Source: Gammaproteobacteria bacterium
GTDB lineage: Bacteria > Pseudomonadota > Gammaproteobacteria > JAUZRS01
Assembly (NCBI GenBank): GCA_030950195.1
Contig: JAUZRS010000171.1
Coordinates: 1-33,986, forward strand
Length of the DNA: 33,986 bases
Reading direction: 5' to 3'
The notes below the pieces were generated by a model, which ran no database searches, was not told the origin of the DNA, and saw nothing but the letters and a program-made list of their open reading frames with translations. A program made the translations under genes and the position numbers. Within the stretch, counting starts at the first letter, position 1; each line of letters starts with the position of its first letter. Below are positions 3,835 to 24,137 of this stretch, in pieces.

Positions 3835-5900
3835 GACGACAACCGCGCCAGATCAGCAACACGCAAAAAGAGGCCGCTGACTTGGTTCAGCAGCGCAATG
3901 CGATTGGCGCGCACGGTTAGATCTTCATCCATCACCATCACCTGATCAAAAAACAGATCCACAGGCTCTTTCAAAGCCGCTAAGGCGGTCAGTGCAGGGG
4001 CGTAATCTCGCGCCGCAAACAGCGCCTCAGTCTGCTGTGCCAAACCCGCAACCGCCGCAAACAGGTCGCGTTCCGCTGCCGCCACAAACAGACTCTGATC
4101 CAGTGCCACCGGCTCACCTTCGACCTTTTTCAAGATATTTTGAATGCGTTTATTCGCCGCCGCCAAACTCTCAGCTGCCTCCAGCTTTTGGAACAGCGCC
4201 ACCGCACGCACCCGCTGATCAAAGTCCAACGGTTGGGTCGGGCGCAAACTCAACACCGCCTCCACCACACTGGCCTCAATAGCGGCATCGGCGTAATAGG
4301 CTTTCAAACGCTCCAGCATGTAGTCAAGAGTTACTTCAATCGCGGCTTCCGCATCGGTCTTGTCAGACAAACCCGCCGCCGCCTGTTGCAACAACGCACG
4401 CAGATCCAGCGGCAGACGACGTTCAATCATGATCCGCAACAGACCCAAGGCCGTACGACGCAGGGCAAAAGGATCTTTGGTGCCGGTGGGTTTTTGGCCG
4501 ATGGCAAAAATCCCCAATAACGTATCCACCTTGTCGGCAATAGCCAAAGCCTGTCCCACAGCACCGACCGGCAGATCGTCACCCGCATGGCGCGGTTGAT
4601 ACTGCTCGCTCATCGCCGCCACCACCGCCGCCGCTTCGCCGTCGTTGTTGGCGTAATAACCACCCATCACCCCTTGTAAGGAGGTGAATTCGCACACCAT
4701 GTCGCTCATCAAATCGCACTTGGCCAGCTCAGCGGCACGGCGCGCATGTTTCACATCGGCACCGATCTGCTCCGCCACCCAAGCGGCCAACTTCGCCACC
4801 CGCTCCGACTTATCAAACAGGGTTCCGAGCTGTTTCTGAAACAAGACGCTCTTTAAGGAATCTCGCCGCGAGGCCAAGGTCTGCTTGCGATCTTGATCCC
4901 AGAAAAACATCGCATCGCTGAAACGTGGCCGAATCACGCGCTCATTGCCCTCACGCACCTGCGCCAGATCTCTGCTCTCAATGTTGCTGATGGTGATAAA
5001 ATAGGGCATCAATTTGCCCTCAGCGGAGAGCAACGGGAAGTATTTTTGGTTATCCTGCATGGTGGTGATCAACACCTCCTGCGGCACCTGTAAAAATTCG
5101 GCTTCAAAACCACCCAGCACCGCCACCGGCCACTCCACCAACGCCGTCACTTCATCCAACAGCGCCGCATCCATCACCGCCACACCGTTCTGTTCTGCGG
5201 CAGCGGCCTCCACTTGACGCACAATTTCAGCTCGACGCTGCGGGTAATCCACCCGCACCTTGCCCTGCTCTTGCAAGGTGCTGACGTAATCCGCCGCCGT
5301 GGCAATTTCGATCTCCTGCGGAGCGTGGAAACGATGGCCGCGTGTGCAGCCCACGGTACGCAGACCCAGCACGGTGGTCTCAACCACCTCAGCGCCAAAG
5401 CGCAGCAACACCCAATGAACCGGGCGGACAAACTCCTCTTCACCCGCGCCCCAACGCATCCGCTTTGGAATCGGCAACGCCGCCAACGCCGTCTCGATCA
5501 TGGTCGCCAACAGCGCCGTGGTCTGCTGCCCTTGTTGCAGACTGCGAAACACCAGCCACGCGCCCTTTTTAGTTTCCATCTGTTCCAAGTCGGCCACATC
5601 AACACCACAGGAGCGGGCAAAACCGCTGGCGGCTTTGCTTGGCTTGCCCTCAGCATCAAAGGCCGCTTGCAGCGCAGGGCCGCGCCGTTCAACGGCTTTG
5701 TCTGCCTGTTTTTCTGCCAAACCAGTGACGATCAAGGCCAAACGCCGAGGACTGGCGTAGGCGCTGACCTGCGCAAAGTTAAGCTGATGTGATTTTAAGC
5801 TGGCACTAAAACCGTCCCGAAAGGCCTCTGATAATGTTTGCAGGGCTTTGGGTGGCAACTCTTCGGTGCCAATTTCAATCAACAGATCGTGCTGGCTCAT
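3831..5900 (-). CDS. glyS: Glycine--tRNA ligase beta subunit
   Basis: [20 protein letters not shown]...; DPFALRR(T)ALGLLRIM; full-length 689 aa. Confidence 0.98.
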
Positions 5901-21522: not shown

Positions 21523-21963
21523 TTAATTCACCTGCAACCAAAACGTCACCGGCCCGTCGTTGCAAAGGCTCACCTGCATATCGGCACCGAATATTCCGCT
21601 GGCCAATTTAGGCTGTTTTTTTGCCGCCGCTTGCAGTAAAAAATGGAACAAATGCTTGCCCTTTTCTGGGGGTGCCGCAGCAGCAAAACTGGGGCGGCGG
21701 CCTTTAGCGGTGTTGGCCGCCAAGGTGAACTGCGGCACCAACAGCAGACCGCCCTCAATCTCCTGCAAGGAGAGGTTCATCCGATCCTCTTCGTCAGCAA
21801 ACAGGCGATAGCTCAAAATGCGCTCCAGTAAGCGCGTCGCCTCGGTCTCACTGTCCTCTTTTTCCACCCCGATCAACGCCAAAATACCCTGCTCAATTTG
21901 ACCAACACACGCCCCATCCACCACCACCTGCGCGTGTGTCACTCGTTGCAACAACGCAATCAT
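21523..21963 (-). CDS. dtd: D-aminoacyl-tRNA deacylase
   Basis: MIALLQRVTHAQVVVDGACVGQIEQGILALIGVE...LLLVPQFTLAANTAKGRRPSFAAAAPPE...GIFGADMQVSLCNDGPVTFWL. Confidence 0.96.
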   Translation of the reverse strand: MIALLQRVTHAQVVVDGACVGQIEQGILALIGVEKEDSETEATRLLERILSYRLFADEEDRMNLSLQEIEGGLLLVPQFTLAANTAKGRRPSFAAAAPPEKGKHLFHFLLQAAAKKQPKLASGIFGADMQVSLCNDGPVTFWLQVN

Positions 21964-22910
21964 TTAAGCCGCCCGGCCATCTGATTGGTGGCACGCACCA
22001 ACGCATCCACAATGCCCGTTTCTAATGCGGAGTGACCCGCATCGGCAATAATATTCAGCTCTGCCTCTGGCCACGCTTGATGCAGCTCAATGGCTTGATC
22101 CACAGGGCAAACCATATCGTAACGACCATGCACAATCACTCCAGGAATGCCGCTTAATTTAGCGGCGTTCTTCACCAATTGATTGGGCTTTAAATAACAG
22201 TCGTTCATAAAATAATCACACTCAATGCGCGCCAAACTGAGCGCCACATACGGATTAGAGAAATGCTGTACCACCGCCGGATTGGGGTGCAAATTGGAGC
22301 TGCATCCTTCCCACACCGACCACGCTTTGGCCGCCGCCATGCGCGCCACCTCATCTTCGGAAAAGAGCCGTTTATGGTACGCCGAAAGCAAATCACCACG
22401 TTCTTCTACAGGAATAGGCGCGATAAAATCCTGCCAAAACTCAGGGAATATACGGCTCGCACCCTCTTGATAAAACCACTGAATGTCTTGCTGACGACAG
22501 AGAAAAATACCGCGCAGAATCAGACCCAGCACCCTCTCAGGATGCGTTTGCGCGTAGGCCAGCGCCAAGGTCGAACCCCACGAACCACCAAACACCAGCC
22601 AGTTTTCAATCTTCAAATGGCTGCGAATCTGTTCGATGTCTCTCACCAAATCCCACGTGGTGTTGGCGTACAAGCTGGCATGAGGTGCAGAAAGGCCACA
22701 ACCGCGCTGATCAAACAAAATAATCCGGTAGACATCGGGATCAAAAAAACGCGCATGAAACGCCTCACAACCCGCCCCCGGGCCGCCGTGTAGAAACAGC
22801 ACCGGAATGCCATCGGCACGCCCGTACTCTCGCAGGTGCAAAATATGATCACCGCCAACGGGCAGTGAATGTTTTACATACTCTTGAATCTCTGCAAACA
22901 AACTCAACAT
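21960..22910 (-). CDS. pip: Prolyl aminopeptidase (alpha/beta hydrolase)
   Basis: VLFLHGGPGAGCEAFHARFFDPDVYRIILFDQRGCGLSAPHA, WLVFGGSWGSTLALAYAQTHPERV, VIVHGRYDMVCPVDQA, DAGHSALE. Likely start is Met at 22910. Confidence 0.95.
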   Translation of the reverse strand: MLSLFAEIQEYVKHSLPVGGDHILHLREYGRADGIPVLFLHGGPGAGCEAFHARFFDPDVYRIILFDQRGCGLSAPHASLYANTTWDLVRDIEQIRSHLKIENWLVFGGSWGSTLALAYAQTHPERVLGLILRGIFLCRQQDIQWFYQEGASRIFPEFWQDFIAPIPVEERGDLLSAYHKRLFSEDEVARMAAAKAWSVWEGCSSNLHPNPAVVQHFSNPYVALSLARIECDYFMNDCYLKPNQLVKNAAKLSGIPGVIVHGRYDMVCPVDQAIELHQAWPEAELNIIADAGHSALETGIVDALVRATNQMAGRLK

Positions 22911-23071
22911 AAGGCCTCTCTCCTTCAAATAGTCCTACTGATCTTCAACCCAACGTCATAGGAAAAGCAAGTCCCCAACCTCACTGAGCATAGACAAAAC
23001 CCTGCCAGCAACAGCATCAAACGAACCACTGCCCCAAATACACCCCAAAATGGATATAAAAAATCAACATT

Positions 23072-23089
23072 TGTAGGAAAAATCCTACA
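23072..23089. promoter_or_regulatory. GacA-box-like palindrome (candidate upstream activating sequence of the sRNA)
   Basis: TGTAGG-AAAAAT-CCTACA: perfect 18-nt dyad with the geometry of the GacA UAS (TGTAAG-N6-CTTACA), about 70-90 nt upstream of a TATAAC -10-like hexamer at 23159-23164. Confidence 0.55.
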
Positions 23090-23170
23090 AAAACTAGCGA
23101 GTTTTACCACAAGAAAACATCAACATTCTCTGTATCCCCTTTCCTAGCAGAGTGGCACTATAACTCCATC

Positions 23171-23334
23171 GCTGGGGATCAGCGATAAGGACCCACACTG
23201 ACAAGGAGTCACGAGTATCAACCCACTCGGTTAATACTCACAAGGATGTACTAGGAATCCACGGATCTTACTCTTATTCACCTCCTGCCCTATGGCAGTG
23301 GCCTCGATCAAGGAATGACTGAGGTCTTTTTTTT
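23171..23334 (+). ncRNA. Candidate CsrA/RsmA-sequestering sRNA (RsmX/Y/Z- or CsrB/C-like); 5' end approximate
   Basis: No credible CDS. Seven GGA motifs (23176, 23189, 23205, 23244, 23254, 23263, 23312). GGA lies in the loops of CGCTG-GGGAT-CAGCG, TGAC-AAGGA-GTCA and TCA-AGGAA-TGA. ACAAGGATGT at 23240-23249 matches the core of the published CsrA SELEX consensus RUACARGGAUGU. It ends in a Rho-independent terminator. Confidence 0.65.
23302..23334 (+). terminator. Rho-independent terminator ending the candidate sRNA
   Basis: CCTCGATCAAGGAATGACTGAGG stem-loop (one A-C mismatch and one G-U pair), then TC and T8. Confidence 0.7.
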
Positions 23335-23393
23335 GCCTGCTGTTTTTACCTCCATCACTTGCCAGCCCATTCACGCAACGGTATCGTGCCGCA

Positions 23394-24137
23394 ATGCACA
23401 GCCTTCCAAACCACCCCTTTCCCAAAAATTTGTTGCGCCCCTTCGGTGAAGCGATTTCCGATTTTGATATGATTCGTGAGGGCGACCGTATTTTGATCGG
23501 CCTCTCTGGTGGAAAAGATTCACTCTCGCTGTTGCACCTGCTGAAACGGCTGCAACAACGCGCACCGGTTCGTTTTGAGTTGGCTGCCATCACCATCGAC
23601 CCACAAACCGCGGACTTTGACCCCAGCCCCCTGATCCCGTATCTCAAAGCACAAAAAATTGATTATCATTATCAACCCTACGCCATCGAAACCTTAGCGC
23701 AAAAACATCTGGGCAAAAAATCCTACTGCGCCTTTTGCTCGCGTCTCAAACGGGGCAAAATCTATCAAATCGCACGAGAGCAAGGCTACAATGTCATTGC
23801 CCTAGGGCAACATCTGGATGATCTGGCGGAAAGTTTTTTAATGTCCGCCTTCTTTAATGGCCAACTGCAAACCATGAAAGCCCACTACCGCAACGACGAC
23901 GGTGACCTACGCATCATTCGACCGCTGGTCTATTGCCGTGAACAGCAATTGGCAGACTTTGCTCAAATGGCTAAATTGCCGGTGATTGCCGAAAACTGTC
24001 CCGCCTGTTTCTCCAAACCTCAGCAACGCCAACGGATGAAACAGCTGCTGGCCAAACAAGCAGCACAACACCCGACGCTGTTTAAACATCTGCGCCACAC
24101 TCTGCAACCATTGATGAACCCCAGCGAGACCTCTTAA
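23394..24137 (+). CDS. ttcA: TtcA-like PP-loop tRNA 2-thiocytidine biosynthesis ATPase
   Basis: EGDRILIGLSGGKDSLSLLHLLKRLQ (PP-loop), KSYCAFCSRLKRGKIYQIA (CxxC), ALGQHLDDLAESFLM, IIRPLVYCREQQLADFA, ENCPACFSKPQQRQRM. Confidence 0.85.
   Translation: MHSLPNHPFPKNLLRPFGEAISDFDMIREGDRILIGLSGGKDSLSLLHLLKRLQQRAPVRFELAAITIDPQTADFDPSPLIPYLKAQKIDYHYQPYAIETLAQKHLGKKSYCAFCSRLKRGKIYQIAREQGYNVIALGQHLDDLAESFLMSAFFNGQLQTMKAHYRNDDGDLRIIRPLVYCREQQLADFAQMAKLPVIAENCPACFSKPQQRQRMKQLLAKQAAQHPTLFKHLRHTLQPLMNPSETS

Follow-up and report, generated by a model that had tools for sequence, protein, structure and literature searches.

The GacA upstream activating sequence of the Pseudomonas genes rsmX, rsmY and rsmZ is the palindrome TGTAAG-N6-CTTACA, and the GacA sites of rsmY and rsmZ lie at -75 and -196 (PMC4950607). 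The UvrY/SirA inverted repeat of csrB in E. coli and Salmonella reads TGTGAGAGATCTCTTACA and is followed 5 bp downstream by TGTAGGAGA; the main UvrY site of E. coli csrB is centered at -183, and GacA/UvrY is known to control RNAs of the CsrB type (PMC4682653). Functional sites that depart from the consensus have been described, for instance TGTGAG in E. coli csrB (PMC4682653) and TATAGCGAAACGCTTACA in P. brassicacearum (PMC7911923). A GacA-type site, TGTAGGGGAATTCTTACA, has also been proposed upstream of csrA1 in Marinomonas mediterranea (PMC8523701).

The window, that is, the whole stretch of 33,986 nucleotides that we analyzed, contains a palindrome, TGTAGGAAAAATCCTACA, that resembles these sites. 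Like the Pseudomonas box, it spans 18 bp with 6-6-6 geometry and precedes a GGA-rich, here putative, RNA (CsrA/RsmA-binding in Pseudomonas), and its position at about -90 falls between those of the rsmY and rsmZ sites (PMC4950607). The two differ at position 5, where the Pseudomonas box has A and the palindrome G, and at position 14, where T is replaced by C. The csrB genes of E. coli and Salmonella also have an 18-bp repeat, and TGTAGG occurs there in the partial second site (PMC4682653). In E. coli, however, TGTAGG is found in that partial site only and the main site is at -183, whereas in the window TGTAGG belongs to the main, symmetric site. The Marinomonas site shares the TGTAGG left arm, but it carries the change in one arm only, and the gene that it precedes is csrA and no sRNA gene (PMC8523701). 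In the open papers that we searched there was no description of a symmetric TGTAGG/CCTACA as the main box; the subscription literature was mostly beyond this search and priority is uncertain.

The palindrome and its surroundings

The palindrome lies in the divergent gap between pip on the minus strand and a TtcA-like gene on the plus strand (Table 1). Its 6-bp arms are perfect, and the palindrome extends to TGTAGGA-N4-TCCTACA. The exact consensus TGTAAG-N6-CTTACA is not found at this position, which reads TGTAGG/CCTACA; the two symmetric substitutions agree with the earlier claim of one compensated change per arm. The same description placed the box about 70 nt upstream of a TATAAC element in a promoter lacking a good -35. 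We measured 69 bases from the end of the box to the start of TATAAC, and a consensus scan found no sigma-70-like -35/-10 pair near it.

Table 1. Features of the locus, with positions in the window
Feature	Position	Strand	Details
Candidate variant GacA/UvrY box, TGTAGG-AAAAAT-CCTACA	23072..23089	.	TGTAGGAAAAATCCTACA; sole exact match in the genome; conserved in sister species; recurs across families
Weak possible second site	23095..23112	.	Right half CCACAA at 23107-23112 (CCACAC in sister species); offset 36
-10 element TATAAC, no good -35	23159..23164	+	6/6 conserved in sister species
Inferred CsrB/Rsm-like sRNA	23171..23335	+	163/165 (99%) identical in sister species; 7 GGA; hairpins with AGGA loops
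Intrinsic terminator of inferred sRNA	23300..23334	+	AGGA in loop; T8 at 23327-23334
Prolyl aminopeptidase (pip), divergent neighbor	21960..22928	-	TIGR01249, 418 bits
TtcA-like PP-loop protein, downstream neighbor	23394..24137	+	PF01171; NF007972 236 bits (cut-off 272)

The start of the putative sRNA is an estimate from the -10 element and leaves the box within the expected range of tens to ~200 bp upstream. The seven GGA motifs (at 23176, 23189, 23205, 23244, 23254, 23263 and 23312), several of them in predicted hairpin loops such as UGAC-AAGGA-GUCA, and the intrinsic terminator are the predicted features of a CsrA-sequestering sRNA. The fold energy is unexceptional (z = -0.98).

The downstream TtcA-like protein has four relatives in a scan of the collection (38-42% identical, in Desulfuromonadaceae, Geobacter and Chloroflexi MAGs), and its gene is possibly a divergent or transferred copy. 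Synteny based on this protein was uninformative, with just four distant loci.

We compared the locus with that of one relative, a sister species of the same genus. The box is identical at 18/18 positions, while the 69 bp spacer between the box and the -10 element is 71% identical. In this comparison, drift is confined to the DNA that separates the box from the RNA, both of which are preserved.

At most one mismatch to TGTARG-N6-CYTACA would be expected 0.12 times in the window by chance. The exact pattern has a single site in the whole 2.76 Mb genome, the palindrome itself, which is thus not a genomic repeat, a possibility that the preliminary description had raised against its own reading. 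Allowing one mismatch gave 16 sites in the genome versus 15 for an arm-reversed control, which leaves the exact site as the only notable one. The extended box with up to three mismatches showed no excess either (41 sites versus 67 for the control), and no second box or second sRNA was found in this genome. One promising one-mismatch site, TGTAAGAGATCTCTTTCA, was rejected because it lies inside glmS. In L004, from another family, a DNA match to the region of the box was likewise set aside as chance; it falls in a Flp-pilin-like reading frame.

One may argue from these counts that the palindrome is a functionless chance occurrence, as one 12-base match in 2.76 Mb is not rare and one-mismatch sites are no commoner than the control. 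Against this, the site lies just upstream of the putative sRNA, is fully conserved beside a diverging spacer and follows a pattern seen across families (below), and we consider chance highly improbable.

The preliminary description had also allowed that the palindrome might be the end of a terminator. Our consensus scan did flag a terminator-like structure on the minus strand, with a 9-pair stem and a T-containing tail. The hairpin, however, has only three G-C pairs and a poor tail, and there is no minus-strand gene upstream for it to terminate. Moreover, other families have arms with exactly these letters, and there they precede putative RNA genes instead of following them. A terminator hairpin that is no protein site at all is therefore a very poor candidate, and a protein-binding site is the better reading.

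Recurrence of the variant box across the class

A genome scan for TGTARG-N6-CYTACA with a test of enrichment had been suggested in the preliminary description. The scan succeeded in singling out one exact site, but a single site gives no power for enrichment within its own genome, so we moved the test to 369 genomes of the same class. The variant TGTAGG-N6-CCTACA is present in 62 of these genomes, compared with 34 for GGATGT-N6-ACATCC, a control with reversed arms. A site passed if, on one side, it had at least five GGA before an intrinsic terminator 130-430 bp away; this rule was fixed, and its terminator part is simple. Among the sites listed, with the window's genus left out, 28 of 73 variant sites passed versus none of 30 control sites (p = 1.4e-5), a comparison weakened because the control sites lie mostly within coding sequence, and one in which sites within a family are not independent. 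The canonical TGTAAG-N6-CTTACA passed at only 6 of the 69 sites listed (p = 3e-5 against the variant). Since RNA-like stretches of this kind accompany TGTAGG/CCTACA more often than the exact textbook box in this sample, the symmetric G/C change looks like a recurrent, widespread variant and not a blemish.

Among the sites listed, passing variant sites fall into 20 families besides the window's own, and 21 of the 28 passing boxes have A at position 7 together with T at position 12, as in the window. In the same stretches, at least five GGA occur at 30 of the sites listed versus at least five TCC (the reverse complement) at 4, so it is GGA in the sense orientation that is enriched. The opposite side of the box passed the rule at 1 of the 75 sites listed.

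This one-sidedness bears on the divergent gene. The palindrome is symmetric and lies ~145-160 bp upstream of pip, a distance from which a regulator could act, given that the E. coli csrB promoter responds to UvrY at -183 (PMC4682653), so the box might serve pip instead of or besides the sRNA. In other families, however, what regularly accompanies the box is a GGA-rich stretch to one side of it. We know of no role of pip in the Gac/Csr circuit, and we regard a pip site as very unlikely; the sRNA remains the preferred target.

Loci L035, L041, L042, L050-L054, L056, L060, L062, L065, L070, L071, L073, L077, L079, L081, L082, L090, L091, L093, L094, L096 and L105 hold candidate RNAs, and probably encode about two dozen CsrB/Rsm-like RNAs in other families. 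Like CsrB, CsrC, RsmX, RsmY and RsmZ, the window RNA is intergenic, with several AGGA hairpins and an intrinsic terminator; unlike them, it and 19 related loci fall below every Rfam threshold. In the window, the Rfam models CsrB, CsrC, RsmX, RsmY and PrrB-RsmZ had no match at the gathering score, and a relaxed threshold gave nothing relevant. Twenty loci of the comparative set, which headed an initial survey by other measures and included the sister locus, had no match at the thresholds either; almost every one of them passed the rule above. At these thresholds the result is uniform, and the sole relevant match among relatives at the relaxed threshold was one weak CsrC fragment, in L071.

The window RNA also contains a TCACCT motif at 23278-23286 (TCACCTCCT), which resembles the anti-Shine-Dalgarno end of 16S rRNA. 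Among the sites listed, 11 of 26 candidate sRNAs linked to a box have TCACCT within the 110 nt that precede the terminator, compared with 0.5 expected (the other loci are L041, L050, L051, L056, L057, L062, L073, L077, L079 and L105). The motif could pair with AGGA sites within the same RNA, or mimic the ribosome's end.

A second half-site may accompany the box. Among the sites listed, C[CT][TG]A[CT], a pattern picked by eye from the same data in which it was counted, is found in 11 of 26 promoters at precisely offset 36, counted from the start of the box; other offsets have a mean of 0.19, and the runner-up, with 3, is offset 59, which is 23 bp further. This 23-bp phase of the related promoters is that of TGTAGGAGA reported for E. 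coli csrB (PMC4682653). Because the copy in the window does not fit C[CT][TG]A[CT], a second GacA half-site there is proposed only tentatively (Table 1).

CsrA, GacA and the recognition helix

The genome encodes one CsrA. One response regulator (L024:1060-1704) has UvrY/SirA/GacA as its best family, with 251 bits versus 157 for the next family, a score that is below the NCBIfam UvrY/SirA/GacA cut-off of 280. A search of the genome for GacS/BarA returned no clear kinase (best match 450 bits, cut-off 890).

Sites of NarL-family regulators can resemble one another, and the genome encodes several other GerE-domain proteins, one of them NarL-like. A different member of the NarL/FixJ family may thus bind the palindrome in place of GacA. 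We consider this very unlikely: a GacA orthologue was detected in 27 of the 28 box-plus-sRNA genomes searched, and GacA/UvrY is the regulator to which CsrB-like RNAs are known to be coupled (PMC4682653).

The recognition helix reads SPKTVN(S/T)YRYR in textbook-type GacA and SPKTISTYRSR in the GacA of the window's genome. The residue aligned with NarL K192, a base-contacting position, is Ser in this GacA and Tyr in E. coli UvrY, and it tends to differ with the box. In helices extracted from 127 genomes, a set that is biased because it was partly chosen by the box, 24 of the 26 genomes with the variant box and an sRNA have a residue other than Tyr here, and all five with the canonical box and an sRNA have Tyr (p = 1.2e-4). 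Counted by family, the residue is not Tyr in 18/20 variant versus 0/5 canonical cases. Among the 83 genomes with the best-scoring GacA, which involved no selection by box, the variant box occurs in 9 of the 14 that lack Tyr versus 9 of the 69 that have it (p = 1.6e-4). On the GacA tree only four independent pairs are supported, too few to carry the association, although the differing pairs nearly always go in the expected direction. The G and C at box positions 5 and 14 are possibly linked with a GacA helix lacking Tyr at the K192 position, which we regard as no more than a lead. We abandoned the idea that the type of box depends on Ser at the NarL K188 position alone, because Ser188/Tyr192 proteins are found with either box.

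In one genome (G244), a canonical TGTAAG-N6-CTTACA (C12:4808-4825, L137) lies ~80 bp upstream of gacA (4908-5540, L216), which suggests autoregulation of gacA there.

A probable variant box for the Gac/Csr switch

The central claim of the preliminary description, a GacA-type activating box upstream of a CsrB/Rsm-like sRNA, gains support from the conserved footprint, from the presence of CsrA and a GacA/UvrY-type regulator, and from recurrence in 20 families. The palindrome is very probably the site of a GacA/UvrY-type regulator whose binding would activate a CsrA-sequestering sRNA. Each of the alternatives (a terminator, another NarL-family regulator, a pip site or chance) is less likely. In the mechanism that we propose, phosphorylated GacA would bind the 18-bp site ~90 bp upstream of the sRNA start and switch on a promoter with a -10 element and no good -35; the sRNA, with its seven GGA motifs, would sequester CsrA. 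We infer binding, activation, sRNA transcription and CsrA sequestration from sequence comparison. The Gac/Csr system itself is already known, and we judge the palindrome to be a real GacA-box variant with good support.

We lean slightly toward a broader view, in which TGTAGG(A)-N4-(T)CCTACA would form a GacA-box class of its own that is common in gammaproteobacteria other than the model species. This class would go with GacA proteins that lack Tyr and have Ser for Asn at base-contacting helix positions, would often have another, weaker site following in 23-bp phase, and would mark CsrA-sequestering sRNAs outside Rfam.

CsrB/Rsm RNAs diverge very fast and are therefore missed by sequence and covariance models. 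A 12-base palindrome that marks them across ~20 families would provide a simple finder, with which the Gac/Csr switch could be mapped in uncultured bacteria. If base 5 of the box and one residue of the recognition helix are linked, they would offer a clean example of joint change in a response regulator and the DNA site that it binds.
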